Assembly: GCF_000708595.2 (NCBI RefSeq)
Contig: NZ_JARP01000001.1
Location: forward strand, 1,488,001-1,552,000
DNA from: Flavobacterium sp. KJJ
GTDB lineage: Bacteria > Bacteroidota > Bacteroidia > Flavobacteriales > Flavobacteriaceae
Reading direction: 5' to 3'
DNA length: 64,000 nucleotides
A model generated the notes under the pieces. It had not been told where the DNA came from, did no database searches, and saw nothing but the letters and a program-made list of their open reading frames with translations. Shown here piece by piece: positions 7,765 through 30,088 of the stretch. A program made the position numbers and the translations under genes. Within the stretch, counting starts at the first letter, position 1; each line of letters opens with the position of its first letter.

Positions 7765-7879
7765 GCGCGTGAGGGATAGGAGCTGGCTACCGAAGTAGCG
7801 CGGATAGCCCGACCGTATTTGCGAAAGGCGCACATAAGCGGCCTCTTAAATAGCGCCTTTTGTAAATATGGTCACGCCC
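7765..7879. repeat. 115-bp GC-rich folded intergenic element
   Basis: An island of high GC in AT-rich DNA that abuts the stop codon of the acetylesterase gene. Ends: GCGCGTGA at 7765-7772 pairs with TCACGCCC at 7872-7879 (7 of 8). Inside are a 21-bp stem (7811-7831 with 7853-7873; 18 Watson-Crick pairs and three G-U pairs when read on the plus strand) and a perfect 5-bp hairpin GCTAC-CGAA-GTAGC (7786-7799), which on the minus strand is a C(UUCG)G tetraloop. It has no coding potential. It is probably a dispersed non-autonomous repeat or a structured RNA. Confidence 0.75.
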
Positions 7880-9829: not shown

Positions 9830-9876
9830 TTTTTTTTATTTTAAAAGAATAAGGCAACCTATAAACAATTGATAAA

Positions 9877-9960
9877 TTTAAACCATATAAGTGATATAAG
9901 TAAAAATAAGCTCACAAATTATGCAACTTAAAATTACTTATATCACTTATATGGTTTAAA
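9877..9960. repeat. Perfect 27-bp inverted repeat after the GH5 stop
   Basis: The 27-bp arm at 9877-9903 (core AAACCATATAAGTGATATAA) is matched perfectly by 9934-9960 across a 30-bp loop. It starts 5 bp after the GH5 stop codon and lies upstream of the acetylesterase start. AT-rich arms without a terminal T tract suggest a dispersed palindrome acting as an mRNA hairpin rather than a classical terminator. Confidence 0.8.
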
Positions 9961-9965
9961 AAATA

Positions 9966-11195: not shown

Positions 11196-11209
11196 GTCGC
11201 TGGATTTTT

Positions 11210-13447: not shown

Positions 13448-13489
13448 ACTTGATAAATTATTTATAGTTTTTTTGTGGTTATTGATAGT

Positions 13490-15070
13490 TTATTGTTTTA
13501 CAAAATTGAAAAAGACAACATCATTTTCATTAATCTTAAAATCTTTACTAAACTTGCCTTTTGAGTCAATACTTACTTTTTCAGTCGCAAGCAAATCACC
13601 ATTATTTTTTTCTTTGATCGTTTTTACTTGATTGGCTGTCAGCTGAGTTGGTTTGCCCATCGCTAAATAATCTGCGAAAGCATCATTGACTTTATATCCA
13701 ACTTTGTAGATCTCTAATTTATAATTGCCTTTTGCCAAACCTTCAACTTCAATTTTAATGCTTCCCTTTGGTTTTGATGGCAAATCCTGAACATAATAGG
13801 TTTGATTGTTGACAGAATCTCCTGGATGCGTGTTTGTAAAATCCCAAAATAATAATTGAACATCTCCTTTTGCATTTTTAGAAGCCCATGAAGAAGTGTC
13901 TTTGTTTTGAAGTTCTGTTTCTCCTAATTTATTCAACAAATAATAAGAGAAATAAGCTGGCTTTTTAATTCCCTGCGTATTCAATAATCCGAATCCGCCA
14001 TGAAAAGGCGTGAATCGTGGCCCAGCTTCTTCAAAAATATCAGTAAAAACCCAATATGACATGGAGTTTGCGGCATTGCCGACCTGTTTTAATTTTTGCA
14101 GAATATAAGCAGCCGAATGATAACTGTCGTGAATAGGATCTGCTGGTGTATAAGATGAACTCCATTCTGTATAATGCAATTCTAATTTTGGCTTAGCCGA
14201 ATTTGAAATCTGTGTACGTGAGTTGATAACATCACCACTGATACTTGATTCATCTTTATTTAAAACGGTTCCTGTTGTTCCAAATTCATCTAAAAACCCT
14301 TGTTTTACTCCATAAGTATGTGTCGAAATAAAATCTAATGCAACATTCTTTTTTGCACAAAAATCAATTGTTTCCGGAACCCAAGCTGCTCCGGCAGTTG
14401 CTGGCCCGCCCACTTTATAAGCAGTGTTTACACTTTTTATTGCGCGTGCGCTGTGCTCGTATAATTTAAAATATTCATCTTGAGTGCCCGTCCAGAAACC
14501 TGGAGATAAGTTAGGCTCGTTCCAAACTTCAAAATACCAAGTTTTTACTTCATCTGCTCCATAACGTTCTGTAAAATGCTGTGTCAGATTGCGAATTAAA
14601 TCTTCCCATTTTTTATAATCTTTTGGAGGCGTAACATTTCCTCTCCACCAAAAAATCGTCTGATTTCCACTGGCCAATGCCGATGGCATAAAACCCAATT
14701 CTACAAAAGGTTTCATTTTTATGCTTAAAATAAAATCATACAAAGCATCAATATATTGGTAATTGTATTCTGGATTTCCTTTTGAATCTTCTCTATAAAC
14801 AGCCATATCATCAGACAATAAACCATGCATTCTGATGTATTTAAAATCACATTCTTTTTTCACCATTGCCAATTGCTGCTGCCAATCGGCGCGCAAACCC
14901 TCATTGGCTCTTCCGGCGCCAATACATTCTTTAAACATGGTGTTTAATTTTCCTGCCTCTTTCTTATAATCAACTTTTATGATTCGATTTTCAGCATTAT
15001 TGTTTTGTCCAAACAAATTAATATTGATTAGAATTACTGTAATAAATAGTATTGCTGAAAAATTTTTCAT
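13490..15070 (-). CDS. GH39 glycosidase (beta-xylosidase-like)
   Basis: A 526-residue secreted retaining glycosidase with signal peptide MKNFSAILFITVILININLFGQ. The (beta/alpha)8 barrel shows the GH39 acid/base Glu185 in EVWNEPNL and the nucleophile Glu302 in HYTEWSSS, with ISTHTYGV and SYWVFTDIFEEAGP also conserved. The C-terminal beta-sandwich (about 395-526) is typical. Characterised members are beta-xylosidases, alpha-L-iduronidases and some arabinosidases. In this locus a beta-xylosyl or similar pentosyl cap on plant xyloglucan is the likeliest target, but this is inference. It lies 42 bp before the GH3 gene in the operon. Confidence 0.88.
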   Translation of the reverse strand: MKNFSAILFITVILININLFGQNNNAENRIIKVDYKKEAGKLNTMFKECIGAGRANEGLRADWQQQLAMVKKECDFKYIRMHGLLSDDMAVYREDSKGNPEYNYQYIDALYDFILSIKMKPFVELGFMPSALASGNQTIFWWRGNVTPPKDYKKWEDLIRNLTQHFTERYGADEVKTWYFEVWNEPNLSPGFWTGTQDEYFKLYEHSARAIKSVNTAYKVGGPATAGAAWVPETIDFCAKKNVALDFISTHTYGVKQGFLDEFGTTGTVLNKDESSISGDVINSRTQISNSAKPKLELHYTEWSSSYTPADPIHDSYHSAAYILQKLKQVGNAANSMSYWVFTDIFEEAGPRFTPFHGGFGLLNTQGIKKPAYFSYYLLNKLGETELQNKDTSSWASKNAKGDVQLLFWDFTNTHPGDSVNNQTYYVQDLPSKPKGSIKIEVEGLAKGNYKLEIYKVGYKVNDAFADYLAMGKPTQLTANQVKTIKEKNNGDLLATEKVSIDSKGKFSKDFKINENDVVFFNFVKQ

Positions 15071-15085
15071 CTGATTTTTTTATTT

Positions 15086-15194
15086 CCTAACAGGTTTTCG
15101 AAACCTATTAGGTATTGTTTTTACCGATCCAATATTCCAAATTAATTTTAACCTCTCTGATTTAATACCTAAAATGTTTTGGAAACCTGTTAGG
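15086..15194. repeat. Imperfect 31-bp inverted repeat (CCTAACAGGTTT family)
   Basis: Left arm 15086-15116 and right arm 15164-15194 match at 27 of 31 positions; the outer 12 (CCTAACAGGTTT) and inner 9 are perfect. A further small palindrome AGGTTTTCGAAACCT sits in the left arm. The same CCTAACAGGTTTT sequence recurs at 19898, so this is a dispersed repeat family. Located between the GH97 and GH39 genes. Confidence 0.75.
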
Positions 15195-15233
15195 ATATTT
15201 AAAATCTAATCTTTGCGTTTGACAATCTATAAA

Positions 15234-17237
15234 TTACAATTTTTTAAATCTGATTGCTGTTCCTCCAGCACCGCCTAAATGTAATTTTAATGAATCTGAC
15301 GCTTTAACTGTTTTCTTAGAAATTGCTATAGCAGACGGATTATGTGTTTCATCAGTTCCTTCTGCGTCAGCATAAATCTGTGCTTCGTAAGTTGCATTTG
15401 GGTCTAAAAATGATAAAGAAACATTTACATCTCTTGCATTTTCATTTGTAATAGTTCCTAAATACCAATCGGCACTGTTTCTGTCTTTACGAACTGTTGT
15501 AATATATTGCCCAATTGATCCTTCTAATACTGTAGTATCTTCCCAATCTGTTGGAACATCTTTTAAGAATTGCAATGCTGGTTTTCCTTCGTAGTTCTCA
15601 GGAAGATCGGCCATCATCTGGATTGGCGCATAAATTGTTACATACAAAGCCAATTGCTGTGCAGCCGTTCCGTGCACTCTCTTTCCTGGAAAACCTTGTT
15701 TTACCTCAACATCAAAAATTCCCGGAGTAAAATCCATTGGTCCAGAAAGCAATCTTGTAAACGGAATAATTGTTAAGTGATTTGGCGGATTTCCTTCGCT
15801 CCAAGCGTTGTATTCCTGTCCTCTTGCTGCTTCTCTAGAAACCATATTTGGAAAAGTTCTGCGCTCTCCGGTGTCTTTTATTGATTCGTGATATAAAACT
15901 GCTAAATCATATTGCGCTGCTTTTTCTAAAATATATCTGAAATAGTTTACCCCAAATTGTCCGAAGTGGTTTTCTTTCATGTTTAATTTAGAACCCACAT
16001 GGCCAATTTTAACCGAGTGCATTCCTAATTTTTTATATAATGCAAAACCTTCGTCAACTTCTTTTAAATAATTAATTAAGTTAGAACCTGTTTCGTGATA
16101 TCCAATTAGTGCTACTCCTTTTTTATTTCCGTAATCGACTACTTTTTCTAAATCAAAATTATCTGCACTTTTGGTGAAACTGAACATGTGCATGTGATTT
16201 TCATACCAAGCCGGCGTCCAGCCTTTGTTCCAGCCTTCGATCAATAAATGGTGAAATCCTTCTTTTGCCGTGAAATCGATATATTCTTCTGCATGTTTGG
16301 TTGTTGCGCCTTGTTTTTCGCTTTCCCAAAAAGTATATTTCCCGATATGCATTCCCCACCAAATTCCGAAATATTTATACGGTTTAAAATAGCTTGTGTT
16401 TTTTAATTTATTTGGTTCGTTTAGATTTAAAATCAAATAAGAAGTAATTAAATCTGCTGGGGTTTCTCCAATTTGAAGCGTTCTCCAAGAAGAGGTAAAA
16501 GTGTCTTTTACGCGTACTTTTACTCCGTCAGCCCAAGGCACTAAATCTAATTTAAGTTGTGTTCCTTGTGTGTTTACCAAAGTCATACTTGCAAAATCTA
16601 CCAAGTTTGCTTCGTGAAAACTCAAGGCCAATCCGCTTTTGCTTTCAATTGTAAGCGGTGTCAAAACAGTATCTAAAGTACTTACTGCTGCATCTTTAAA
16701 AAGATATTCGTCACGGTTTTCTCGGTTTGCCGGAATCCACCATGCTTTTCCATCTTCTTTTAAGTTAAAAGTCGTTTTTTCATCCATAATGAAAATACTG
16801 TCTTTTACATTTTGTTTTGGATATACATATCTAAACGCGATTCCGTCATCGAAAGCACGAAATTGAATTTGCAGCTTTCGTTTGTTGCCAGTTTTTTGCT
16901 GTAAATCAACTACTAACTGATTGTAGTGATTTCTAATGTTTTTCTTTTCTCCCCAAACTTGTTCCCAAGTTTCATCAAATGTTGAATTCTTTACGCTTTT
17001 GATTTCGAAATCTGAGCTTAAATTTTCATTTCCCTTTAATAAAAAACCCATATCCGATGGTGTAATCACTTCGGTTTTTCCGTGTGAAACAGCATATTTG
17101 GGAGCGTTTTTTACTAATTCGAATTTTATTTTATTCTGCCCATTAGGCGAAGCCAATTCGTAAGCATTCTTATTTTTCTGACTGTAACCAATTGTAATTG
17201 ATAATAATACAGCTGGAAGAACTAGATATTTTTTCAT
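15234..17237 (-). CDS. GH97 alpha-glycosidase
   Basis: Secreted calcium-dependent alpha-glycosidase (alpha-glucosidase or alpha-galactosidase) of a family typical of Bacteroidota. The Met at 17237 is preferred over the upstream in-frame Met because it begins a signal peptide (MKKYLVLPAVLLSITIGYSQ); length 667. The N-terminal beta domain (about 25-260) precedes a barrel with YHETGSN, VKIGHVG, HESIKDTG, RTFPN, GQEYNAW, GPMDFTPGIFD and LPENYE. Where retaining alpha-galactosidases carry a nucleophile Asp after VK.., this protein appears to have Gly (VKIG), as in SusB-like inverting alpha-glucosidases. That assignment is by eye. Its substrate in a xyloglucan locus is unclear. Confidence 0.9.
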   Translation of the reverse strand: MKKYLVLPAVLLSITIGYSQKNKNAYELASPNGQNKIKFELVKNAPKYAVSHGKTEVITPSDMGFLLKGNENLSSDFEIKSVKNSTFDETWEQVWGEKKNIRNHYNQLVVDLQQKTGNKRKLQIQFRAFDDGIAFRYVYPKQNVKDSIFIMDEKTTFNLKEDGKAWWIPANRENRDEYLFKDAAVSTLDTVLTPLTIESKSGLALSFHEANLVDFASMTLVNTQGTQLKLDLVPWADGVKVRVKDTFTSSWRTLQIGETPADLITSYLILNLNEPNKLKNTSYFKPYKYFGIWWGMHIGKYTFWESEKQGATTKHAEEYIDFTAKEGFHHLLIEGWNKGWTPAWYENHMHMFSFTKSADNFDLEKVVDYGNKKGVALIGYHETGSNLINYLKEVDEGFALYKKLGMHSVKIGHVGSKLNMKENHFGQFGVNYFRYILEKAAQYDLAVLYHESIKDTGERRTFPNMVSREAARGQEYNAWSEGNPPNHLTIIPFTRLLSGPMDFTPGIFDVEVKQGFPGKRVHGTAAQQLALYVTIYAPIQMMADLPENYEGKPALQFLKDVPTDWEDTTVLEGSIGQYITTVRKDRNSADWYLGTITNENARDVNVSLSFLDPNATYEAQIYADAEGTDETHNPSAIAISKKTVKASDSLKLHLGGAGGTAIRFKKL

Positions 17238-17348
17238 GTTTTCTTTCTTAATTCGTCTTTTATAAATCGGATGCGAAAATCTCATCCGATTTAAAAAGAC
17301 TCAACTTAAACTAACTTATTTTTTATCCTGTTGGGATTATTTTTTTCT

Positions 17349-17461
17349 CACAGATTAAAGGATTTTAATGATTTCTTTAAATTCTGTATTTATTCTCACG
17401 CAGATTTGGCAGATCGAGCAGATTTTGCAAATTTTTAATTTTTAATCTGTGCAATCTGTGG
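17349..17461. repeat. CAGATT-type repeat element with 9-bp periodicity
   Basis: Spacer between GH31 and GH97. CACAGATTAAA (17349-17359) pairs perfectly with TTTAATCTGTG (17441-17451). Inside, GCAGATTTG, GCAGATCGA and GCAGATTTT are three tandem 9-mers (17400-17426), and AATCTGTGC/AATCTGTGG (17444-17461) are two more in the opposite sense. No coding potential seen; probably a dispersed repeat. Confidence 0.65.
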
Positions 17462-17470
17462 CTATTTTTT

Positions 17471-19870
17471 TTATTTAACCCACTCCGTTTTAAAAGTGGT
17501 TTTTCCTGTCAATGCGTTTGGTGTTACTTCAAAATTGTTTCCACTTTTTGTCACTTTTATTTCCTGAACTGCGTCGCCTTCTGGTAAAAATACTTTGGCT
17601 GTCGCCGAAGTTGTTTTGTCGCTTGCATATACTTTTAGCGTTAATTTACTCCAATCCATATCTTTTGTAGATTGTGCCAAAGCGATATGAGGCAATGCCG
17701 TTCCGTCTTTTACTAAAACTACAATTGGCACTTCGCCTGCTTTAATTTTATGCCATCCTGATTGGTATACTTTTTTAGTTTGATAATCAATCCAAGTTCC
17801 TTCTGGAAGATAAACATCTCTTTCTGTCACTTCTTCAAAAAGCGGTGCAACTAAAATGCTTGAACCAAATAAATATTCATTATCAACCAGCCAAGCTCCG
17901 GGATCGTTTGGATATTCTACAAATAAGGCACGCATCATTGGCAATCCTTTTTGAGAACTTTCTTTCGCTTGAGCGTAGATATAAGGCATCAATTCGTAAC
18001 GCATATTATCTGCTTTTCTAAATCCTTCCAAGAAATCTTTACTGTACAACCAAGGTTCACGCGGAGGTTCGCCGTGGCTTCTTACGTGCGAAGTAAACAT
18101 TCCGAATGGTGCCCATCTTCTGTATAAATTCTCTGGCGATTTTGTTGCAAATCCACCCACATCATGACTCCAAAAACTGAAACCGCTTAAACCTAATGAA
18201 AGTCCGCCTCTTAATTCTGCCGACATTGCACCGTTTGTAGTTTCAGCATCTCCGCCCCAATGTAATGGGTATCGCTGCGATCCTGCCCAAGTACTTCTCG
18301 CCCAGATTAAAGTATATCCTTTTTCTTTTTGGGTAATTTCAGCAACGGCTTTATTGTATCTTAACGGATATAAATTGTGCTCGTAGAAACCTGTACGTCC
18401 TGAATGGTAAATTCCATCTGGCGGTGCAGCTTCTCCAAAATCAACTTTAAAAACAGAAACACCTTGATCAAATAAATGTTTTAGTTTTGATTGATACCAA
18501 GTTACCGTTTCAGGATTTGAGAAATCTAAAACCGCGTCTTCATAAGGAAGATTTCCTTTGCGGTCTCTTACTGCAAGATTTTTATCCATGATTTCGTTGA
18601 ATAATGTATTCTTTGGTGAGAAATAAGGCAACTGCCATAAACACACGTGAAAACCATCATCTTTTAAATCAGACATCATTTTTTGAGCATCTGGAAAACG
18701 ATCTTTAGAAAACTCATAATTGTTTCTCCAATCTACATCAAACCAACCTGTATCAAAGTGAATAACATCTGTTGGGATTTTATATTTACGCAAATCTTTT
18801 GCTACTTCACGTCCTTCTTTTTCAGAGAAATACGTAATACGGCTCATCCAGAAACCAAATGACCAAAGTGGTGGCATTGCTGCTTTTCCGGTTAAATCTG
18901 TGTATTGGTCTAAAATATCTTTTGGTTCACCAATGAAGAAAAATAAATCGGCTTCATCATCTCCAATGTACATTTCGTTTGCGCTTCCGTAATATCTTCC
19001 AAAATCAACAGTAATTGGCGTTGAATGGTGCATGAAAACTCCGTAACCACGGCTGCTCATATAAAACGGAACAGGTTTATACATCGTTTCATTCTGAATT
19101 CCGTTCGCATCATCTGTCCATAAAACTACTTTTTGACCGCGTTTGTTGAATTGAGTGAAAGATTCTCCACAGCCAAATATTTTTTCGTCTGGCTCTAAAC
19201 TGAAAGCCGCGCCCATACTTCTTGAATAATCGCTGTTTCTGCGCACATACGAGAACGGAAGTGTTGGTGTATAGGTATTTTTAAAATCAGAATCGTGAAG
19301 TGTACTCGTTAACAATTTCCCTGTCTCATCGTAAATTTTTATGTGCCAAGGTTTTGATAAAATCTCTACAACTCCATGTTTGCTGGTATATTTATGACCG
19401 CCTTCAATTTTAGAATATTTCCATAATTCTGGATGATTTGGCGCAACACCGTTAATCAGCATTAAAGACTCTTTTTCTGGATGAAATTGTGGTCCCGAAG
19501 TGGTTTTGATTCGGATAGTTCGATCTGAAACAAACTGAATTTCAAATGGCAAAACAGGAGATTCTGCATATTCCGTTGTTGGGAATTCATTTGCCTTTTC
19601 CACATCTGGCTTCATCATCATATTGTTGAAAGCCTGACGCGTTTTATAATTGTATCTCAAATATTTTATAGTGCCTTTTCCGGTTGCCGGATCAAAAGAT
19701 GCTAGTTCATCAGCAAAATAAAAAGTGTTCAGATAGTTTTGAAAATCTTTGCTGATATCTATTGGAGCGTTTAATACATCTGCGTTCTGGATCTGTGCTG
19801 ATGCTTTTGGCATAGCAAGAAATCCAAACATGAAGATGGAAAACAATACTTTTAGTTGTGTGTTTTTCAT
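17471..19870 (-). CDS. GH31 alpha-xylosidase (YicI-like)
   Basis: A 799-residue secreted GH31 enzyme with signal peptide MKNTQLKVLFSIFMFGFLAMPKASAQ. It would remove alpha-1,6-xylose from the non-reducing end of xyloglucan oligosaccharides in the periplasm. Diagnostic segments: IFGCGESFTQFNKRG, IHFDTGWFDVDW, nucleophile Asp477 in VFKVDFGEA, acid/base Asp541 in HWGGDAETT, and LRGGLSLGLSGFSFWSHDVGGF, which closely follows E. coli YicI alpha-xylosidase rather than starch alpha-glucosidases. Distal beta domains follow from about residue 660. It lies 65 bp after the GH2 gene. Confidence 0.92.
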   Translation of the reverse strand: MKNTQLKVLFSIFMFGFLAMPKASAQIQNADVLNAPIDISKDFQNYLNTFYFADELASFDPATGKGTIKYLRYNYKTRQAFNNMMMKPDVEKANEFPTTEYAESPVLPFEIQFVSDRTIRIKTTSGPQFHPEKESLMLINGVAPNHPELWKYSKIEGGHKYTSKHGVVEILSKPWHIKIYDETGKLLTSTLHDSDFKNTYTPTLPFSYVRRNSDYSRSMGAAFSLEPDEKIFGCGESFTQFNKRGQKVVLWTDDANGIQNETMYKPVPFYMSSRGYGVFMHHSTPITVDFGRYYGSANEMYIGDDEADLFFFIGEPKDILDQYTDLTGKAAMPPLWSFGFWMSRITYFSEKEGREVAKDLRKYKIPTDVIHFDTGWFDVDWRNNYEFSKDRFPDAQKMMSDLKDDGFHVCLWQLPYFSPKNTLFNEIMDKNLAVRDRKGNLPYEDAVLDFSNPETVTWYQSKLKHLFDQGVSVFKVDFGEAAPPDGIYHSGRTGFYEHNLYPLRYNKAVAEITQKEKGYTLIWARSTWAGSQRYPLHWGGDAETTNGAMSAELRGGLSLGLSGFSFWSHDVGGFATKSPENLYRRWAPFGMFTSHVRSHGEPPREPWLYSKDFLEGFRKADNMRYELMPYIYAQAKESSQKGLPMMRALFVEYPNDPGAWLVDNEYLFGSSILVAPLFEEVTERDVYLPEGTWIDYQTKKVYQSGWHKIKAGEVPIVVLVKDGTALPHIALAQSTKDMDWSKLTLKVYASDKTTSATAKVFLPEGDAVQEIKVTKSGNNFEVTPNALTGKTTFKTEWVK

Positions 19871-19897
19871 TTGTTAGTAATTCTATATGTTAGTTGT

Positions 19898-19924
19898 CCT
19901 AACAGGTTTTGGAACACTGTTAAG
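19898..19924. repeat. Second copy of the CCTAACAGGTTTT palindrome
   Basis: Short imperfect palindrome in the GH2-GH31 spacer: CCTAACAGGTTTT (19898-19910) with TAACAG pairing to CTGTTA (19917-19922). It shares its left arm exactly with the repeat at 15086. Confidence 0.65.
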
Positions 19925-19935
19925 AGTGTAAATTA

Positions 19936-22425
19936 TTATTCTGCTGTAATTACGATCGTTGCAGGTTTTAATCCATTTGCTTTAGCGGTTAATTCTAATC
20001 TTCCTGATTTAGTATCCGACTGAACAATTACTAAACATTTCCCGTTAAGCGCAGTATGTTTTGAACCTTTATACGATTCGTGACTTACTGGATCTCCACT
20101 GCAGACTCCCACAATTTTTCCGTTTCCTTTTAAAGAAAAGTTAATTTCGTTATTTGCTTTTGGAGCCAAAGTTCCGTTTGCATCTAAAATATCGACTGTT
20201 ACAAATGACAAATCATTTCCATCTGCTTTAATCGTACTTCTATCTGCTTTCAATTTTAAGTTTGATGGATTTCCAGCAGTTTTGATTTCTGTTTCTAAAA
20301 CTGTTTTTCCGTTTTTACGAGAAACCGCTTTTAATGTTCCGGCTTGAAAAGGAACTTTCCAAACTACATGCAGCTCTTCTCCTTTTTTACTGCGAACTCC
20401 AACTGATTTTCCGTTTAAGAAAAGTTCAACCTCATCTGCATTATTGTAATAAGCCCAAACGTCTACGGTTTGTCCAGCTTTCCAATTCCAATGCGGAAAC
20501 AAATGCAAAACTGTTTTATTCGTCCATTCGCTTTGGTACATATAATAAACGTCTTTTGGGAAACCAGCTAAATCTACAATTCCGAAATAAGAACTGATTG
20601 ATGGCCATTCATAAGGAGTTGGTTCTCCGATATAATCGAATCCGGTCCAAATGTACATTCCAGAAAGATAATCGTGTTTTTTAATAATTTTCCAAGTTGC
20701 TTCGTGCGTAGAACCCCAAGGCGCCTGCACCTGATCATAAGCAGAAACAGTGTTTCCTGCATTTCCGTCTGTAAATTTAAGATCCCATCTTACTGGCCAT
20801 TTTTTAATCGAATCAGAACTTTCGTCGTAATAACCGCGAGTTTCTAAAGCCGATGTTGTTTCAGTAGCAATAAATGGTGTTTTTGGGAAATTCTTCTGAT
20901 GATATTCATACGTTTGATGAGCGTAATTATAACCAATAATATCTAAAGCACCAGAAGCTGCAATTTTATTGTATTGAACTGCTGCCTTATCAAACTGCAA
21001 ATCGATACCATCAAGATTCATATTAACTGGCGGATTCATGGCAGCCGTTATCGGACGTGTTTTATCGTATTGACGTGTAATGTCTGCCAATTCTTTGGCA
21101 ATTGTAACACCGCTTTCGTCCCACTGCTGTGGAATTTCATTTCCAATACTCCACATAAAAATACTCGGGTGATTACGGTCTCGAAGCAATTGATCGATTA
21201 AATCTTTCTTGTGCCATTTATCCCAATCATTTCCGTAATCGTATTTGGTTTTAGATTGTTTCCACATATCGAATGCTTCATCCATGACAATGAAACCCAT
21301 TTTATCGCAAAGATCTAAAAGTTCTGGAGCGGGCGGATTGTGAGAAGTTCTGATTCCGTTTACACCCATTTCTTTCAAGATTTCTAATTGTCTTTCGATC
21401 GCGCGCGTATTGATTGCAGTACCTAACGGGCCTAAATCATGATGCATACAAACTCCCTTAATTTTAACTTGTTTTCCGTTTAAAAGGAAACCTTTGTTTA
21501 AATCAAATTTAAAATCCCTGATCCCGAAATTAGTTTTGTATTCGTCTATAATTTGATTATCAACCGAAATTGCTATAACGGCTGTATACAGTTCTGGTTT
21601 TTCAACAGACCATAAAACAGGAGTTTCAACTTCTGTTTGCTGCTTAATTGTTTGATTGGCATTTGCACCAATTGTTATATCTTGAGTAACCGATGCTACT
21701 TTTGTATCTTCTTTATAAATAGTTGTGGTTACAGTTGCTTTTTTTGAAGCTGCGTTTTGATTTTGAACAGTAGTTTCAAATTGTACCGAAGCTTTTTGAG
21801 CGGTAACTTTTGGAGTTGTTACATAAGTACCCCATTGTGCAACATGCAATTTATCAGTGGTTTCGATCCAGACATTTCTAAAAATTCCAGAACCAGAATA
21901 CCAGCGTGAATTAGGTTGTTTTGAATTGTCAACCTTTACAATAATTTCATTGTTTTTGTCTCCGTAATTTAAGTATGGAGAAATTTGGTATTGAAAACCA
22001 ATATATCCGTTTGGACGTTTTCCTAAATAATGTCCGTTTACCCAGACTTCACTATTTCTGTAAACGCCATCAAAAATGATTGAAGTTACTTTACTGCTGT
22101 CTGCGGCATTTACTTTGAATGTTTTTTTGTACCAGCCTAAACCTCCGTTAAGCGCTCCGCCTCCGTATCCGGCAGGACTTTTTTCATCAAATTTTCCTTC
22201 GATGCTCCAATCATGAGGAACATTTAAAGTTCTCCATTTTGTTGATGCTCCAATAGTATCTTTATCTGCAATACTATCATTTAAGTGAAAACTCCAATCT
22301 GAATTAAAAGAAACTTTTCGGTTGCTGAAAGCTTCTTCTTTTTTACTGCAAGAATTGAATATTATAATTCCTGCCAACATTACTAATGACAGCCCGCTCC
22401 TTAAATACTTTCCTTTATTCTTCAT
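19936..22425 (-). CDS. GH2 beta-galactosidase lipoprotein
   Basis: Retaining beta-galactosidase that would remove galactose from xyloglucan side chains after fucose is cleared. The Met at 22425 is the likely start: it opens a lipoprotein signal with lipobox FNSC (Cys26) followed by SKKEEA; upstream in-frame sequence looks non-coding. Of 829 residues, about 40-200 are the jelly-roll sugar-binding domain (HDWSIEGKFD, GVYRNSEVWVNG), then an Ig-like domain, the barrel with acid/base Glu430 in SIGNEIPQ and nucleophile Glu522 in ATETTSA, and C-terminal beta domains (WNWKAGQ, NADEVELFLNGKSVG) as in PUL enzymes with a DUF4982-like module. The lipobox and basic/acidic residues suggest outer-membrane anchoring. 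Confidence 0.92.
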   Translation of the reverse strand: MKNKGKYLRSGLSLVMLAGIIIFNSCSKKEEAFSNRKVSFNSDWSFHLNDSIADKDTIGASTKWRTLNVPHDWSIEGKFDEKSPAGYGGGALNGGLGWYKKTFKVNAADSSKVTSIIFDGVYRNSEVWVNGHYLGKRPNGYIGFQYQISPYLNYGDKNNEIIVKVDNSKQPNSRWYSGSGIFRNVWIETTDKLHVAQWGTYVTTPKVTAQKASVQFETTVQNQNAASKKATVTTTIYKEDTKVASVTQDITIGANANQTIKQQTEVETPVLWSVEKPELYTAVIAISVDNQIIDEYKTNFGIRDFKFDLNKGFLLNGKQVKIKGVCMHHDLGPLGTAINTRAIERQLEILKEMGVNGIRTSHNPPAPELLDLCDKMGFIVMDEAFDMWKQSKTKYDYGNDWDKWHKKDLIDQLLRDRNHPSIFMWSIGNEIPQQWDESGVTIAKELADITRQYDKTRPITAAMNPPVNMNLDGIDLQFDKAAVQYNKIAASGALDIIGYNYAHQTYEYHQKNFPKTPFIATETTSALETRGYYDESSDSIKKWPVRWDLKFTDGNAGNTVSAYDQVQAPWGSTHEATWKIIKKHDYLSGMYIWTGFDYIGEPTPYEWPSISSYFGIVDLAGFPKDVYYMYQSEWTNKTVLHLFPHWNWKAGQTVDVWAYYNNADEVELFLNGKSVGVRSKKGEELHVVWKVPFQAGTLKAVSRKNGKTVLETEIKTAGNPSNLKLKADRSTIKADGNDLSFVTVDILDANGTLAPKANNEINFSLKGNGKIVGVCSGDPVSHESYKGSKHTALNGKCLVIVQSDTKSGRLELTAKANGLKPATIVITAE

Positions 22426-22522
22426 TTTGATATAATTTATAGTTTTTGAAAAACAAATATAAACATACCGGTAAGCGACTGTACCAATCACCTACCGGTT
22501 AGTTTTATATATTTAAGTAAAT

Positions 22523-23383
22523 TTAAGGTTTTGGTTTGTAATGAAACACTATTAAACAAACACCTTCGCCAGTACGGCTTTTATCTCTAATAACGGCTAA
22601 TCTTAACGATGTTGCAGTCAATTCGACTACTTTTACACTATACCAGTTGCTTACATCTCCATAATAATCGCCACCATAAAGCATTTCAACTCCACCATTA
22701 AAGATTAGTTTGTTGTTTGCAATATCAAAAGTATAAGTTCCTTTTTTTGTAGTTTGCGTATCGTTTGCAATTGCAGTTTGTGTAACATTTGTATTGTATC
22801 CGCCATTTAAGTCGAAATACATTTGTCCCCAATTTTTATTTGCCATAACCCATGAATTGCTTGCATAATCTGGAAGCCAGCTCCAGTTATCTCCAGACGC
22901 TGCTGGGTAGTCTAAACCAGCCCAACCAACAGGATCTGTAAAATCTAATACCCAAGTTTTACCTGTTACCCCATTTGTAAGCATGTTCCATTTAGGATCA
23001 TTAAAGTAAGTAGCATCATTTTTATCTACCAATACTTCTACAGGAGCTGCATCTACAGAACCTCCTCTTGTGTATGCTGTGAAATAAACAGTATATTTTC
23101 CTGCGAAAGGAAAAACTACATTGTCACTGCTTTTGTTAGAATGTCCTAATTCGTTTCCGTTTCCATCAACATATTTCCAATACGGAATTACAGTTGGATC
23201 ATCACTTTTTAAAGTAATTTGATTTTTATTTGTGGCATTTTGAGTTACAGAAAACTTAAGTGTCGACGGCGTTAAAGTTACCGCAGGCAAACTCTCGCGA
23301 TCTTCTACAGCCTCGCATGAGAATAATAACGAACCGATGGTTACAGCCGCTATTAATATATATAGTATACGTTTCATAATCAT
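22523..23383 (-). CDS. PUL surface lipoprotein, probable glycan-binding protein
   Basis: A 286-residue lipoprotein in the slot after susD where surface glycan-binding proteins are encoded. Lipobox LFSC (Cys23); the start could be Met1 or Met3 (MKRILYI). Residues about 35-120 look like a PKD/Ig-like domain (LPAVTLTPSTLKFSVTQ, YTVYFTAYTRGGSVDAAPVEVLV). The C-terminal part (about 130-286) has GKTWVLDF, many Trp (WSWLPDY, WVMANKNWGQMYFDLNGGY) and strands suited to sugar stacking. It is shorter than, and not clearly homologous to, the known xyloglucan SGBP-B. Lies 14 bp after susD. Binding function is inferred from position and aromatic content. Confidence 0.8.
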   Translation of the reverse strand: MIMKRILYILIAAVTIGSLLFSCEAVEDRESLPAVTLTPSTLKFSVTQNATNKNQITLKSDDPTVIPYWKYVDGNGNELGHSNKSSDNVVFPFAGKYTVYFTAYTRGGSVDAAPVEVLVDKNDATYFNDPKWNMLTNGVTGKTWVLDFTDPVGWAGLDYPAASGDNWSWLPDYASNSWVMANKNWGQMYFDLNGGYNTNVTQTAIANDTQTTKKGTYTFDIANNKLIFNGGVEMLYGGDYYGDVSNWYSVKVVELTATSLRLAVIRDKSRTGEGVCLIVFHYKPKP

Positions 23384-23397
23384 TTGTTTTTAGTTAA

Positions 23398-24984
23398 TTA
23401 CCAACCTGGATTTTGTTTGATTGTACCATTAGAAAGTATTACTTGAGATTGTGGCAATGGAAACCAGCCTAAAGTTTCAGTTCTGAAAGTCACATTAAAT
23501 TGAGAATCAGCATCTGTGTTATCGATTGCTAATTTTGCAACATCAACTCCTTGTCTGATCAAATCGAAATAACGTTGTCCTTCAAGAGCTAATTCTAAAC
23601 GACGTTCATTCAAAATAGCTGCTTTTGAAACCGCAATTCTGTGCGTTGTGTTTTTGAAAGCACGGTCACGAACTTTATCTAAATCTGCTTGCGCTAATCC
23701 GGCATTTGTTCCTAAGTTCAATTCGGCTGCCATTAATAAAACATCTGCATAACGAATGATTGCATAATCTTGGTAATTATCAATTTGGAAGTTTCCTCCA
23801 TTAGCCTCAACAACTGCAGTTCCAGCTGCATTGGTAATTGGGCAATATTTTTTCCAAGAATATCCTGTGTACTGGCGTTGTTCTCTTGCTTGTGCATCAA
23901 AATTTAAGTTTTCATCAGCATAGCTAATGATAGTTGCATTTCTACGAGTATCTCCAGCTTCATAAGCATTATATAAATCTGGATTTACAGTTGCTCCTCC
24001 CCATCCGGTTGCATATTTTCCGATAGCTCCACCACGCGGTGCAATGTTAACCTGAAAACGGTTTCCTTCGTGTAAGTCCCAGTTTCCTTTTCCCGATCCG
24101 TTAAAACGAACCGCCCAAACCATTTCAGTATTATCTTCTCCTGCAAAATTTTCAAAAGAAGCTGCAAGCCAAAGGTTCGCAAAATCAGCCACTAATCCGT
24201 GTCCGCTATTGCTTACTGCATCGTTAATATAAGTTACAGCCTGCGCTTTTGTAATTACACCAGCTAAATCAGCTTTTTTGTAATAATCTGTGTAAAACAA
24301 AAATGTTCTTGCGATATAGGCTTCAGCAGCCCATTTTGTAATACGACCGTAATTTGCATTTCCTTTTTGAGAATAATTTTCAGGACCTAAGTTATCAGCA
24401 GCAAATTTTAAATCATTTGCAATTAACGCATAAGTCACATCAGCAGTAGCTCTTGGCAATTCAAATTCGCTTGTTGTAACCGTATGGTCAAGCGGAATAA
24501 TATCGCCAAACATTTTTGCTGCCTGAAAATGAAAGTGCGCTCTTAAAAAACGTGCTTCAGCTTCGTATTGTGTTTTTAAAGCGGTGTTGGCTCCCCAATT
24601 TACTTTATCTAAATTTTCTAATAAGATATTTGCTCTGTAAATTCCTAAGTAAGAAGTAGTCCAGATATTTGCATTCATATCTTTATCGATCGTGTATAAA
24701 AAGCGATCCCACTCTAAATCTCCAGCTGGATCGGCAATACCAAATCCTCCAAAGCAATCATCAGATGCCTGCTCGCTCACAATAAGCGGTCCGCCGTAAG
24801 CCTCACGCTGTAATACATCATAAACAGCAACTAATCCTTCAAAAGCATCCGCTGGCGTTTTATAAAAATTTTCAGTTACTTTATCTGTGTATGGTTCATT
24901 TTCCAAAAAATCTTCCGAACAAGCTCCTAAAACCAATAAGCTTGAAAGGGCAAATAATTTTATATATCGTTTCATCGTTTTCAT
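23398..24984 (-). CDS. SusD-like outer-membrane glycan-binding lipoprotein
   Basis: RagB/SusD family lid of the SusCD uptake complex. Lipobox LGAC (Cys22) followed by SEDFLENE, an acidic stretch that resembles the surface lipoprotein export signal of Flavobacterium. The 528 residues show SusD landmarks: an N-terminal helical region with TPR-like repeats (EARFLRAHFHFQAAKMFGDI, ITKWAAEAYIARTFLFYTDYY), RYADVLLMAAELN, and the conserved C-terminal NERRLELALEGQRYFDLIRQG and ending GWFPLPQSQVILSNGTIKQNPGW. It starts 3 bp after the susC stop. Confidence 0.97.
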   Translation of the reverse strand: MKTMKRYIKLFALSSLLVLGACSEDFLENEPYTDKVTENFYKTPADAFEGLVAVYDVLQREAYGGPLIVSEQASDDCFGGFGIADPAGDLEWDRFLYTIDKDMNANIWTTSYLGIYRANILLENLDKVNWGANTALKTQYEAEARFLRAHFHFQAAKMFGDIIPLDHTVTTSEFELPRATADVTYALIANDLKFAADNLGPENYSQKGNANYGRITKWAAEAYIARTFLFYTDYYKKADLAGVITKAQAVTYINDAVSNSGHGLVADFANLWLAASFENFAGEDNTEMVWAVRFNGSGKGNWDLHEGNRFQVNIAPRGGAIGKYATGWGGATVNPDLYNAYEAGDTRRNATIISYADENLNFDAQAREQRQYTGYSWKKYCPITNAAGTAVVEANGGNFQIDNYQDYAIIRYADVLLMAAELNLGTNAGLAQADLDKVRDRAFKNTTHRIAVSKAAILNERRLELALEGQRYFDLIRQGVDVAKLAIDNTDADSQFNVTFRTETLGWFPLPQSQVILSNGTIKQNPGW

Positions 24985-24987: not shown

Positions 24988-27900
24988 TTAAAAGTTAACA
25001 TTAAGACCCATCATGTATGTTCTAGGCTGTGGATAATATCCAACATCAATTCCTTTTGCCCAAGTTTGGTTTACGTTTCCAAAACCAATCTCTGGATCCA
25101 TTCCTTTATACTTTGTAAAAGTGTAAATGTTGTTTCCTGCTACATACAATCTGAATTTGCTGAAGAAACTTAACTTGTTTGTTAATTTTGTCAAATCACA
25201 TCCAATAGTTGCGTTCTTAATTCTGAAGAAATCAGCGTCTTGAACATATAAATCTGAAAATTTCGTGTAGTTTCCGTTAGGATCAGTCCCGTAAGTTACT
25301 CTTGGAACCGTATTAGAAGTTCCTTCAGAAGTCCATCTGTTTAAAACTTCTGTTGTATTATTTGTGTAGGCACGAGTTGCATCGTGAATTCCGAAAACGT
25401 TTTGACTTCCTGAAACACCGTAAGTATTGATAGAAAAATCAAAAGCTTTATAAGAAAGATCCATGTTTACACCATAAGAAATATCTGGATTTGGATTTCC
25501 GATTTCAGTTTTGTCATTCGCATCGATTTTTCCGTCTCCATTCAAATCAACAAAACGAACATCTCCAGGCGAAGCATTTGGCTGTACACCAGCTTGAACT
25601 TCTGCTGCATTTTGGAAAATTCCAGCTGTTTTTAATCCGTAGAAATAACCCATTGGTTTTCCTACCTCAACACGGTTCATCTCATCTAAACCTTGGAACA
25701 ATACATTTGATTCTCCGTGAATGATTCCTTCATTGTTTGCAATTCGAAGTACTTCATTTTTGTTTGCAGAAAGGTTTGCATTAATTCCGAAATTCCAATC
25801 TTTTGCAAAACTTTTGCGGTAACCAAGTGCAAATTCAAATCCTTTATTGCTTACATCACCACCATTAATATAAGGTGCTGTTGCTCCTGCATAAGTTGGG
25901 ATAGAAGCTAAAACCAGCCAGTCTTTTGTTTTCTTATCGTAGTAATCAAAAGTTAAAGTAAAGTTTTTGAACAAAACAGCATCAAAACCGAAATCTAACT
26001 GCTCTGAAGTTTCCCATTTTAAGTTACGGTCTGAAAGCTGATCAGGGCTAGAACCTACTAACAAAGTTTCATCTCCAGTACCAAAATGGTAACTTTTATC
26101 TGTTGAACTTACCGTAGACATATAAGCAAATCTTCTAGCAAACTGGTCGTTACCATTTTGTCCCCAGCTCGCTCTAAGTTTAAATGTATTTAAAACTGCA
26201 TTTTCTTTAAAAAAAGCTTCTTTATCTAAATTCCAACCTGCAGAGAAAGATGGGAAAATGGCATATTTGTTATTTGGACCAAATTCTGAAGAACCGTCTC
26301 TACGAACTGTTGCAGAGAATAAGTATTTGTTATTATAATCGTAAAGCAAACGTCCGAAGTAAGACTGAATTGCATAATCTGTACGATTTCCTGCTACTGT
26401 ATTAGAAGTTTGATCTTTCGCATTACTTAAATACGCATGTTCAAAATCATCAAAAATCAAGTTTCTACCTGTACCGCTCATATAATCTGAAGTATTCTTT
26501 TTAGCAGAAGTTCCTACTAAAACATCAAAATTATGTGTGTCGCTAATTGAGAATTTGTATTGCAACGTATTTTCAAAAATCCATCCCATCGCTTTTGTAC
26601 CACTTTGAGTAACGCTTGAAACCGTATTATTATCATTTGAAGAAAGAGAATAAACAGGTCTGAATGAACGGAAATTACTGTCTGTCATATCAACACCAAA
26701 ACTAGTTCTGAAAGTAAAATCTTTTGCGAATTTCAATTCTGCAAAAATATTTCCAACATAACGATTTACCTTTGTTTGATTAAAGTTGTTGTAATACAAT
26801 GATCCAACCGGATTGCTGACATCTGCAGAAATAATAGAATGAGCAAAATCTCCATTTGCATCGTAAGCTGCATCAACTGGAGCTGCATTTAAGAAGCTTC
26901 TGATACCATTGCTGTAAATTCCTTTATCAGCAACTCCGTTGCTTTTAATATTTGATAAAGTGAAGTTTTCACCAATTTTCAAATGATTTTCAATAATTTC
27001 AGAAGTTGAGTTTACACTAAAAGTAATACGATCGTATTGAGACTGATTATTTACGCCGCCAATCATGCCTTCTTGTCCGTAGTAAGACAAACCAGTAGCA
27101 ATTGTAGATTTTTTATCACCGCCAGTAATCAAAAGTGAATGATTTTGTTTCATTGCACCTTCATTAAACAAGTCGTCTTGCCAGTCATGATTTGGCAATG
27201 CTGCAACCTGAGCTGGTGTGTATAATGGAGTATATCCAGAATTAACACGTGCTTCGTTGATGATTGTAGTATATTCTTTGGTATTCATCAAATCTAATTT
27301 TTTAGCAACTTGCTGAAAACCAGTATAAGAATTGAATGACACATTCATTTTTCCGTCTTTTCCTTTTTTGGTTGTAACCAAAATAACTCCGTTTGCTGCT
27401 CTTGCTCCGTAGATAGAAGCGGCAGAAGCATCTTTAAGAACATCGACCCTTTCGATAACTGAAGGATCAAGATATCCGATTCCGTTATCAACCACAACAC
27501 CGTCTACTACATAAAGCGGATCGCTGTTTCCTGCAGTTCCGGCTCCACGAATATTTACCACCATATTAGCACCTGGCTGTCCTGAAGATGAAGTAACAGA
27601 AACCCCAGAAGCCTGACCTTGCAAAGCATTTACAACATCTAAACTTGCTACTTGCTGAATATCTTTACCTGAAACTAATGAAGTTGCTGCTGTATTTACC
27701 TTTTTCTTTTGTGTTCCGTATCCGATTACAACAATTTCTTTAAGTTCAGCAGTTTCAGCCTGCATCGTAACGGTTATTGTTTTTTGAGTTCCAACTGTAA
27801 TGTTTTGTGTTTTATATCCCATAAAACTAAATACAAGTACGTCGCCTGTTTTTGCTTCTATTTTAAAATTTCCGTCAAAATCAGTTGCTGTACTCGTTTT

Positions 27901-28080
27901 TGTTCCCTGTACTAAAACAGTTGCACCAGGAACTCCCATACCGTCATCTGCCGACTTTACATTTCCACTTACTGATTTAGACTGGTCCTGAGCAAAACCA
28001 GACTGCATCATAAATACGCTAAGCAACAGCGCCAAACAAAATGGAAGCATTGTTGTTTTAATACAATATTTGCTTTTCAT
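24988..28080 (-). CDS. SusC-like TonB-dependent outer-membrane transporter
   Basis: First gene of the PUL: the 1030-residue TonB-dependent channel (SusC/RagA family) that imports oligosaccharides under the SusD lid. Signal peptide ends at GFAQ (about residue 31). A carboxypeptidase-regulatory-like beta domain follows ([20 protein letters not shown], about 36-115), then the TonB-interacting segment [15 protein letters not shown], the plug domain ([60 protein letters not shown]) and the 22-strand barrel ending GLNVNF. Divergent from the regulator genes across 534 bp, so its promoter drives at least susCD and probably the whole locus. Confidence 0.97.
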   Translation of the reverse strand: [1030 protein letters not shown]

Positions 28081-28270
28081 AATAATTAAGAATTGGTTAA
28101 AATTTATAGTTAAGTTATTTTTAATCTAATTGTTGAAATCCGAATTAATTTTTATAATAACGGTCTTCCTTTTCAAGTTGAAATTTCCATCTACGATTTC
28201 ATTTTTAATTCCAAAAACAGTATCTGACCTATTTTTTTAAGTGAAGAATTATTTGCTATTTTAAAAGTTA

Positions 28271-28307
28271 TAGTCAAAATGAATTTATCTTATGGTTAAT
28301 TTGACTA
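28271..28307. promoter_or_regulatory. Candidate operator: TAGTCAAA inverted repeat
   Basis: TAGTCAAA (28271-28278) and TTTGACTA (28300-28307) form perfect 8-bp arms separated by 21 bp, about 190-230 bp before susC. The centre-to-centre spacing of about 29 bp is close to three helical turns. Confidence 0.4.
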
Positions 28308-28450
28308 CAAGTGTAAAACATTTTTTCATATTAACAAAATATTAGGCAAAAAAATTTGCTATTGCGATTAAACAACTATGATAATTATGGATATTTCAAT
28401 AGAGGGCGTTAAATTGAGATAAAAAATATTGAAAAAATAATAGTTTAGAG

Positions 28451-28592: not shown

Positions 28593-28615
28593 TTTGTCAA
28601 AATTTTGATAACAAA
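28593..28615. promoter_or_regulatory. Palindrome overlapping the first regulator start
   Basis: TTTGT and ACAAA flank the perfect 10-bp palindrome CAAAATTTTG (28598-28607); the right flank touches the ATG at 28615. Position fits autorepression of the regulator genes. Confidence 0.4.
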
Positions 28616-29331
28616 TGGTTAAAAGTACACAGGACGATTCGGCTTTAAAAAGCGAGCAGACCGCAATGAATGCGATCACGATTGACTGTGTTATTTTTGG
28701 TTTTGACAAAGGAAGTTTAGAAGTACTTTTAGTGCAGCACGGAGAAGGAATCAGTAAAGGAAAATGGGGACTTCCAGGAGGTTGGATTTATAAAAAAGAA
28801 AGCACCGATAATGCTGCGCACCGTTTATTAAATGAGCTTACAGGACTTGACAATATTTATCTGGAGCAGTTAAAAGCATTTGGAGATCCAGACCGTTTCC
28901 CGCTTCGACGCGTTATTACGATTGGATATTATGCCTTGGTAAAACGCGAAGATTATAACATTAAAGCAGGTTTTACAGCTTCTGATGCCAAGTGGTATCG
29001 AATCAATACTATTCCGGATTTAATTTACGATCATAATGAAATTCTTTCTTATAGCTTAAAACATCTTCAGAATCGAGTTCGTCAAGCACCGCTTGGTTTT
29101 AATCTTTTGCCTGAAAAATTCACTTTATTGCAATTGATGCATTTGTATGAAGAAATTTTAGGCGTCGAAATGGACAAATCAAATTTTAGAAGAAAAATTC
29201 TGCACATGAAGTTATTAGTTGCGTTAGACGAAAAACAACAGGATGTTTCACACCGTGCAGCAAAACTATACAGATTTGACCCAGCGATCTACAATAAACT
29301 GACACAAAAAGGATTTAATTTTGAATTTTAA
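28615..29331 (+). CDS. Nudix-fold transcriptional regulator, NrtR/AraR type (copy 1)
   Basis: A 238-residue regulator: residues about 18-150 are a Nudix-fold sensor (ITIDCVIFGFDKGSLEVLLVQH, GKWGLPGG) and about 155-238 a winged helix (LPEKFTLLQLMHLYEEILG, NFRRKILHM, KLYRFDP). The Nudix box is broken: after GGWIYKKES the REUxEE core reads RLLNEL, losing the metal-binding Glu residues, so it should bind a ligand and not hydrolyse nucleotides. In Bacteroides such proteins control L-arabinose or xylose utilisation genes. It is divergent from susC and directly followed by a paralogue, so control of the PUL is likely. A later Met (residue 18) is a possible alternative start. Confidence 0.88.
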   Translation: MVKSTQDDSALKSEQTAMNAITIDCVIFGFDKGSLEVLLVQHGEGISKGKWGLPGGWIYKKESTDNAAHRLLNELTGLDNIYLEQLKAFGDPDRFPLRRVITIGYYALVKREDYNIKAGFTASDAKWYRINTIPDLIYDHNEILSYSLKHLQNRVRQAPLGFNLLPEKFTLLQLMHLYEEILGVEMDKSNFRRKILHMKLLVALDEKQQDVSHRAAKLYRFDPAIYNKLTQKGFNFEF

Positions 29332-29350
29332 CCCCAGCCTGTAAGCAATA

Positions 29351-30088
29351 ATGAAATTTTCACCTTCTAAAAATATGCTAAATCCAGACAGCAAAAAAGC
29401 TGCAGAAATGCCACAGCCAGCCGTTGACGGAATCACGATTGACTGCGTTATTTTTGGATTTAACAAAGCAAGCCTCGAAGTACTTTTAGTTCAGCATGCC
29501 GAGGGAGAAAGTATTGGAAAATGGGGACTTTTGGGAGGATACTTAAAAAAAGATGAAAGTGCAGATGACGCCGCACAGCGAATTTTATACGAACTCACCG
29601 CTCTAGATAATATTTACTTAGAACAACTGAAAGCGTTTACGAACCCAAATCGTGTAAGCGAACGAAGAGTAGTTACTATTGGCTATTACACTTTAGTAAA
29701 TCGTGAAGATTATAATATTAAAGCCAGCTTAACGGTAATCGAAGCTAAATGGCACAAAATCAATGATGTTCCGGATTTAATATTTGATCATAACGAAATT
29801 TTAGGCTTTAGTTTAATGCAATTGCGAAATCGCGTTCGTCAAGCGCCAATTGGTTTTAATCTTTTGCCAGAAAAATTTACTTTATTGCAGCTAATGCATC
29901 TTTATGAAGAAATATTAGGAATTGAATTGGACAAGTCAAATTTCCGAAGAAAAATTCTGCACATGAAATTACTGGTTGAGCTCGATGAAAAACAGCAGGA
30001 TGTTTCGCACAGAGCAGCAAAACTCTACAAATTTGACCCCGATATTTACAAAAAACTGACCGAAAAAGGTTTTAATTTTGAATTTTAG
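29351..30088 (+). CDS. Nudix-fold transcriptional regulator, NrtR/AraR type (copy 2)
   Basis: A 245-residue paralogue of the preceding gene, 19 bp downstream and surely co-transcribed. By eye its C-terminal DNA-binding half differs from copy 1 at about 9 of 87 positions, whereas the Nudix half differs at about 40 of 131. The Nudix box is again dead (GGYLKKDES then RILYEL). The conserved Pro of GKWGLPGG in copy 1 is Leu here (GKWGLLGG). This suggests a recent tandem duplication in which the sensor diverged while DNA recognition was kept. Ligand unknown; xylose, arabinose or another pentose are reasonable guesses. Confidence 0.87.
   Translation: MKFSPSKNMLNPDSKKAAEMPQPAVDGITIDCVIFGFNKASLEVLLVQHAEGESIGKWGLLGGYLKKDESADDAAQRILYELTALDNIYLEQLKAFTNPNRVSERRVVTIGYYTLVNREDYNIKASLTVIEAKWHKINDVPDLIFDHNEILGFSLMQLRNRVRQAPIGFNLLPEKFTLLQLMHLYEEILGIELDKSNFRRKILHMKLLVELDEKQQDVSHRAAKLYKFDPDIYKKLTEKGFNFEF

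Follow-up and report, generated by a model that had tools for sequence, protein, structure and literature searches.

The xyloglucan utilization locus of Flavobacterium johnsoniae (XyGUL, Fjoh_0772-0782) is proven for xyloglucan and is tied by its authors to life on plant roots, and the words "regulator" and "Nudix" do not occur in the main text of that paper (PMC11892949). A PUL whose gene set matches the one described there is encoded in the window analyzed here, i.e., the whole 64,000-nucleotide stretch of Flavobacterium sp. KJJ, which bears out its initial annotation as a xyloglucan-type PUL. Beside it lie two adjacent NrtR/AraR-type regulator genes, called A and B in this study (Table 1). 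Do these regulators control the PUL, and why are there two of them? Based on sequence patterns, phylogeny, palindrome distribution and gene context, we consider it rather probable that A and B arose as duplicates and share one operator, and that both likely repress the PUL in answer to different sugars.

The Regulator Pair and the Neighboring PUL

A and B are encoded on the same strand with an intergenic gap of 19 bp, between the minus-strand PUL (5216-28080) and lepA. In both proteins a Nudix-like domain precedes an NrtR/AraR winged helix, with PF00293, PF21906 and PF19368 all above cut-off, as expected for a tandem NrtR/AraR-type pair. The description "divergently placed" holds for the pair relative to the PUL; A and B themselves stand in tandem on one strand. 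The best PDB relative of A is the Bacteroides thetaiotaomicron AraR (E 2.7e-52).

Table 1. Window coordinates of the regulators, the divergent PUL and the predicted control elements between them.
Feature	Position	Strand	Basis or remark
Rest of xyloglucan PUL: SusD, GH2, GH31, GH97, GH39, GH3, GH5, SASA esterase (CE20-type), GH95; ORF at surface-protein position has no Pfam match	5216..24984	-	Pfam
xusC-type TonB-dependent transporter, first gene of divergent PUL	24988..28080	-	Pfam Plug, CarbopepD_reg_2
Candidate second, imperfect abutting site O2	28267..28289	+	half-site GTTATAGT at 28267-28274, 22 bp from O1
Predicted operator O1, CTTATGGTTAATTTGACTACAAG, palindrome CTTRTRGT-N7-ACYAYAAG	28289..28311	+	conserved in relatives
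Predicted -7 element TACACTTG of xusC promoter	28308..28315	-	overlaps O1
Predicted -33 element TTTTG of xusC promoter	28335..28339	-	19 bp from -7 element
Regulator A (XylR-like)	28615..29331	+	Pfam NUDIX, NrtR_WHD, AraR_C
A, Nudix sensor, presumed ancestral type	codons 21-151		
A, winged helix	codons 152-238		
Regulator B, derived duplicate	29351..30088	+	Pfam NUDIX, NrtR_WHD, AraR_C
B, Nudix sensor, presumed remodelled	codons 28-158		
B, conserved winged helix	codons 159-245		

The start codon of B varies among relatives. An ATG 3-45 codons ahead of the conserved IDC motif is absent in 31 of 81 B genes (from the best 80 of 126 loci plus the window), those of L029, L036 and L048 among them. 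In the eight of these genes that were examined a TTG is located 16-17 codons before the motif, and B may be translated from this TTG, perhaps at a lower level.

The transporter part of the PUL varies as well. In L118, L222, L235 and L238 the SusC/SusD/surface-protein module is only ~28-51% identical to that of the window PUL, against 74-95% identity for the enzymes, a pattern that resembles an exchange between two alleles of the transporter. Full-length SusC proteins encoded beside A+B pairs fall below 55% identity to the window SusC in 22 of 60 cases.

Divergence of A and B Is Concentrated in the Sensor Half

The initial annotation had described the pair as having the same DNA reader and different sensors, with differences estimated by eye at about 9 of 87 winged-helix and about 40 of 131 Nudix positions. 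Our recount gives 9/87 and 39/131 (Fisher p 0.0007). In codons that encode the same residue, the Nudix and winged-helix halves show no clear difference in synonymous changes (40/92 vs. 25/78, p 0.15), thus the contrast sits at the protein level.

The same pattern is seen across relatives in an alignment of 173 rows comprising 77 A, 83 B and 13 unpaired relatives, from which six remote relatives at or below ~60% identity were omitted and in which one B row is counted twice, the B of L116 being identical to that of L007 and probably from the same genome. Winged-helix identity is 0.922 within A, 0.938 within B and 0.905 between A and B; the corresponding Nudix values are 0.936, 0.815 and 0.687, which lends strong comparative support to the idea of a common reader with different sensors. 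Unpaired relatives compared with A show no such skew (Nudix 0.853, winged helix 0.863), and therefore neither domain is simply slower-evolving. Judged from these alignments, the one-sided divergence is a general and paralog-specific pattern.

With a fixed difference defined as a residue held by at least 85% on each side, 14 positions distinguish A from B: 12 in the Nudix domain, one in the winged helix (12 vs. 1, p 0.017) and one at the N-terminus. At all 14, the A residue is also the commonest among the 13 unpaired rows. In the tree, which was rooted by midpoint, B forms a single clade (support 100/100, stem 0.55) nested in a 64-row group (99/98) that also contains all A rows and whose finer branching is weakly supported. 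The well-supported clade together with the A-like residues of unpaired relatives marks B as the derived copy, and we read the sensor of A as ancestral. B is under purifying selection: its dN/dS of means is 0.059 for the Nudix and 0.036 for the winged-helix half (from 379 and 439, respectively, of 2926 pairs, dS 0.1-1.2), compared with 0.032 and 0.035 for A.

Nudix Box, Ligand Pocket and DNA-Contact Residues

Relative to the Nudix signature in the form printed in PMC4666351, A and B each lack two of the four Glu residues (RE to RL or RI; EE to EL), in agreement with the earlier remark that both boxes are short of catalytic Glu. Positions A71 and A75 are Glu in none of the 77 A and 83 B proteins; A62 is Glu in all of them and A74 in 159/160.

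Residues of A and B were mapped onto BtAraR, the L-arabinose regulator, whose arabinose site consists of Arg34, Phe36, Phe49, Arg86, Phe129 and His131 (PMC4666351). Arg34 is His in 173/173 rows (A, B and unpaired relatives), and neither Phe36 nor Phe49 is retained. Arg86 and His131 are the sole residues of this site kept in all rows, with Phe129 kept in B only: the equivalent position, A138, is Tyr in 77/77 A and 13/13 unpaired rows and Phe in 83/83 B. In BtAraR this residue lines the pocket and is said to set stereo-selectivity (PMC4666351). At the Gly89 position, 76/77 A carry Leu and most B carry Glu, Asp, Ser or Gly. B proteins vary at the pocket positions 44, 57 and 97 (A numbering), and His42, Gly55, Gly56, Arg94 and His140 are invariant in 83/83 B. 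Val92, near the BtAraR dimer interface (PMC4666351), corresponds to Val in 77/77 A and to Val or Ile in 83/83 B. The fixed sensor differences show no clear excess near arabinose-contact positions (4 of 12 within two residues, as estimated by eye).

The DNA contacts of BtAraR are Lys179, Arg180, Asn181, Lys184, Lys204 and Arg205 (PMC4666351). Each position matching 179, 181, 183, 184, 204 and 205 holds one identical residue throughout the 173 rows. Lys179, Asn181 and Arg205 are retained in all rows; Arg180, Lys184 and Lys204 are replaced in all, by Ser (Pro in 26/77 A), Arg and His, respectively, in A and B alike.

"AraR-type", if understood as AraR in the sense of an L-arabinose regulator, did not hold up. 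The replaced Arg34, Phe36 and Phe49 mean that A and B are not AraR; the recognition residues differ as well, and the same genome encodes a separate AraR-like protein. This third NrtR-type protein (L133, C2:304000-323500) has the AraR pocket residues by eye, lies between a group of SusCD, arabinofuranosidase and GH43 genes and a galactokinase gene, and is likely a true AraR. Phe138 in B was considered as a sign of arabinose sensing and dropped, since L219 and L220, two xylBA-linked relatives (47-51% identity) with a different, AraR-like pocket, also have Phe there. As these two carry an AraR-like pocket beside xylBA while A lacks Arg34, pocket residues do not name the sugar.

A Conserved Palindrome Overlaps the Predicted xusC Promoter

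Comparison of upstream regions by eye, followed by a scan of relatives, identified a 23-bp palindrome, CTTATGGT-N7-ACTACAAG, between xusC and A (O1). The window has no other copy, which speaks to uniqueness only as the pattern was drawn from the window itself, and the genome of Flavobacterium sp. KJJ has no other exact site. At up to three mismatches this genome yields 28 matches vs. 81 for a backwards control, and the two extra sites inspected at 2-3 mismatches both lie by unrelated genes. Across 81 loci (the best 80 of 126 plus the window) the half-sites are nearly invariant and the first spacer base is variable. We infer that O1 is bound by both A and B.

O1 has a weaker neighbor, O2, whose half-site is found with at most one mismatch at a distance of 22-23 bp in 77/77 A+B loci (best 80 of 126 plus the window). 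Elsewhere it is found in 3/10 unpaired Flavobacterium loci (another site was scored in two of the ten, L121 and L123), 1/7 loci of other genera, 0/11 other targets and 0/4 B-only loci. Its loss in the four B-only loci was considered as proof that O2 needs A; this was dropped because these loci lack xusC, which would stand on the O2 side, and the missing gene may explain the loss.

On the minus strand, the TACACTTG element and the TTTTG 19 bp from it fit the -33/-7 promoter of Bacteroidota, and a loose TTTTG-N-TAnnYT(T/G) pattern is present in 79/81 loci (same set of the best 80 of 126 plus the window). No RNA element between xusC and A matched Rfam at the gathering threshold. An inverted repeat upstream of A (window 28453-28526; TTGACAATCA / TGATTGTCA, ~55 bp apart) is distinct from O1 and, by eye, looks partly conserved in relatives.

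Distribution of A, B and the Palindrome

A named-genome scan with B as the query (best 80 of 126 loci, plus the window) gave 77 loci with A next to B and four with B alone; A-only genomes are missed in this set because the query was B. A second, overlapping sample consisted of 199 genus genomes, in which a regulator was counted as A/B-type at at least 65% identity. It was detected in 46, and the adjacent pair, which had been proposed for a search in other Flavobacteria, is present in 32 of the 199. In one of these 32 (G093) two stop codons fall within the B match. The remaining regulator genomes comprise eight with a single copy, two with two separate copies, one with a single unlinked copy (G117), two with B only (G107, G095) and one with a fragment (G186). 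In the family at large (Flavobacteriaceae, 249 genomes from 235 genera), ten further genera carry close A relatives (67-80%) as unpaired genes, and no adjacent pair outside Flavobacterium was found among the matches listed. The best explanation is that B arose by duplication within Flavobacterium, a step that belongs to the overall reading we judge probable.

The exact palindrome CTTATGGT-N7-ACYACAAG occurs in 39/46 regulator genomes vs. 0/153 genomes without the regulator, and at one mismatch in 44/46 vs. 13/153, a co-occurrence confounded by common ancestry and linkage and, at one mismatch, noisy (92 matches vs. 65 for the pattern read backwards). A stands alone beside the palindrome in L118, L119, L120 and others, with both copies (O1 and O2) present in L118 and L120. 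In the tree both cluster with A rows of species that have the pair (L120 with L016, 97/92; L118 weakly), which makes a loss of B probable in these two. The B-only loci L006, L007, L010 and L014 have intact palindrome half-sites and a shortened PUL, and in 4/4 a decayed C-terminal A fragment is located between the palindrome and B; they are close relatives and probably represent one event. G107 (probably the L007 genome) is the one B-only genome that was mapped further upstream; in the stretches covered, GH95, CE20-type esterase, GH3, GH97 and GH2 are present, and GH5, GH31, GH39, the transporter pair and A were not found. On the whole, and in few and related cases, each protein alone appears to go with a maintained site, as a shared site predicts. 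In the 28081-28614 region, where one shared operator had been expected, there is a single conserved, operator-like palindrome, and it persists beside A or B alone. The exception is G095 (L117), in which B is kept with no PUL gene nearby and no palindrome at 0-1 mismatch in the genome. A tie between the presence of B and PUL gene content was also considered and rejected, since six A-only and eleven A+B mapped PULs encode about the same enzymes.

Xylose Genes and the Putative Regulon

In 9/10 unpaired Flavobacterium loci with a PUL (not L124), xylBA, or a sugar transporter plus xylBA, is divergent from the A ortholog. The same holds for five of the ten loci in other genera (L208, L210, L211, L212, L215), with xylBA absent from this position in L209, L213, L214, L216 and L217. 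Among A+B loci with SusC in reach (best 80 of 126 plus the window), 16/76 have ~3 kb between A and SusC, and in the four that were mapped (L078, L011, L015, L017) this stretch is xylBA. No linkage of B to xylose genes was seen where A is missing: GH2 is first beyond the palindrome in the four loci with a decayed A.

We inspected 21 further non-PUL palindrome sites in regulator genomes, which are all those outside the loci already covered. Thirteen of them precede pentose, glycan or SusC genes, namely GH74, GH5, xylBA, GH43 (four), GH39 (two), PUL SusC (three, two of them next to GH67) and an SDR/MFS operon (L169). The other eight are not near relevant genes, five being inside ORFs. Two more GH74 palindrome sites are near A (L122, L123). 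Solved structures confirmed the identity of GH74 and xylose isomerase, and Pfam that of the other target genes. Taken together, the targets look like a xylose/xyloglucan regulon, which makes a xylose-type sensor the most likely role of A; our best reading of A is an XylR-like, xylose-responsive repressor of the xyloglucan PUL.

The genome of Flavobacterium sp. KJJ has two xylose isomerase-like genes (C5:268126-269421 and C4:107730-109025; 67% and 62% to a relative's PUL-linked one). Both are away from A/B with no palindrome near either, and xylose catabolism seems uncoupled from the pair in this genome. In G003, an unpaired genome, the SDR/MFS operon (L169:1-1611) has an exact palindrome, and an amidohydrolase gene (L123:198-1022) lies beside a GH74 gene that has its own palindrome. 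By Pfam only, this suggests that the regulon of that genome extends to another sugar pathway, which may be that of L-fucose.

Proposed Mechanism and Alternative Explanations

A would be released by D-xylose or a metabolite of the xylose pathway, as its orthologs are often divergent on xylE-xylB-xylA and the palindrome heads xylosidase/xyloglucanase genes elsewhere. B would have kept the operator-reading surface, changed its sensor and respond to a second ligand. By analogy with BtAraR, O1 and perhaps also O2 would be covered by dimers of A and B at the start region of xusC; as O2 abuts O1 as a weaker copy, there could be room for two dimers next to each other. If both proteins repress at one site, opening of xusC would need both to leave, i.e., AND-like control. 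The two-input control put forward in the initial annotation is in this sense a sound prediction. We infer DNA binding, repression, the ligands of A and B and the AND-like logic. A specific gate at a shared tandem operator, with xylose acting through A and another sugar from xyloglucan, for example galactose or fucose, acting through B, is possible, and we put it forward tentatively.

The pair could act in other ways. A and B could work mainly as a heterodimer, with B modulating or blocking A as its partner instead of serving as a sensor in its own right. The short gap between the genes suggests co-expression, the NrtR/AraR family dimerizes (PMC4666351) and the position of BtAraR Val92 is Val or Ile throughout. 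However, an intact palindrome also stands next to A without B (L118-L120) and next to B without A (the four B-only loci), indicating that neither needs the other over evolution, and we regard a principal role as a heterodimer as unlikely. The likeness of the winged helices could, on the other hand, result from gene conversion between neighbors instead of selection for one operator. The winged-helix synonymous difference between A and B is indeed lower at the same locus than between loci (0.408 vs. 0.442; 0/2000 permutations as low), but a smaller same-locus effect is present in the Nudix half (0.447 vs. 0.465, 0/2000), as shared codon bias would give, the same-locus value resembles that among A genes across species (0.419), and protein identity of the winged helix is 0.907 within a locus vs. 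0.905 for all pairings. As synonymous divergence between A and B is close to that seen from one species to another, gene conversion is a highly improbable cause of the likeness, and the small same-locus excess in both halves leaves room for occasional events.

Alternatively, B could have lost its response to sugar and act at the shared operator as a constant brake on basal expression. The faster Nudix half of B, in both identity and dN/dS, and the variable pocket positions 44, 57 and 97 are what a ligand-blind protein might display. The five invariant pocket residues (His42 to His140), the fixed Phe138 and a dN/dS far below 1 speak against it, and we doubt that B is blind. A and B could also respond to one sugar at different concentrations, which would make the response graded: Arg86 and His131 among the BtAraR contacts and the His replacing Arg34 are common to all A and B. 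It would then be hard to account for 12 fixed sensor differences, position 138 included, and we find this distinctly unlikely. A shared operator read by two proteins that answer to different sugars is our preferred reading.

Relation to Known Systems

The NrtR family, an inferred xylose branch and the xyloglucan PUL are known already. The closest described system is BtAraR (BT0354, PDB 5bs6), the NrtR-family L-arabinose repressor of Bacteroides, which is released by sugar and needs dimers for binding (PMC4666351). According to the passages of PMC4666351 used here, it resembles A and B in its two-domain Nudix plus winged-helix build, its impaired Nudix box, its control of sugar and PUL operons with tandem sites at the main promoter, and the GT-N7-AC core of its site, as in O1. 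It differs in that its half-site carries GTGT vs. CTTATGGT for A/B and in the replaced Arg34, Phe36, Phe49, Arg180, Lys184 and Lys204, and no duplicated pair is mentioned in those passages. XylR (BT0791), the predicted xylose regulator of Bacteroides, is also of the NrtR family and clusters with xylose genes (PMC3878776; PMC4666351); as far as these sources describe it, it is one gene in a xylose-use operon, and A is likened to it by description and gene context. The ADP-ribose-responsive NrtR of Shewanella (NAD metabolism) has the same domain order and detectable homology. Assignment of A and B to that type was rejected, as they score 135.9 and 125.4 on NCBIfam NF050029 vs. a cut-off of 400, and NAD genes are absent from their annotated neighbors.

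In the open full-text literature, which leaves most subscription journals outside, we found no description of the pair, its one-sided divergence or its operator, consistent with the earlier impression that the pair is undescribed. A and B are candidate regulators for a validated xyloglucan PUL whose paper names none in its main text, and with such candidates and a concrete predicted operator, control of the PUL becomes directly testable. The pair also offers a clean natural case of one domain locked to a likely shared site with the other changed, and A-only, B-only and A+B genomes are ready comparisons.

Additional Observations

In several genomes, a minus-strand gene for a 75-77 aa peptide with a double-glycine-like leader is located between the A/B pair (or A) and lepA (L036:5759-5989, L083:5763-5987, L118:9799-10029), with a palindrome upstream (L036:6100, L083:6087, L118:10148); the L118 peptide has no Pfam match. 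The product would be a small peptide of secreted type, possibly controlled by the same switch. A G+C-richer palindrome, CTTGTGGTGAACACCACCACAAG or near it, occurs in genomes with and without these regulators (L174:4336-4358, G004, G047, G130), and the L174 copy lies, by eye, between photolyase-like and ABC1-kinase-like genes.
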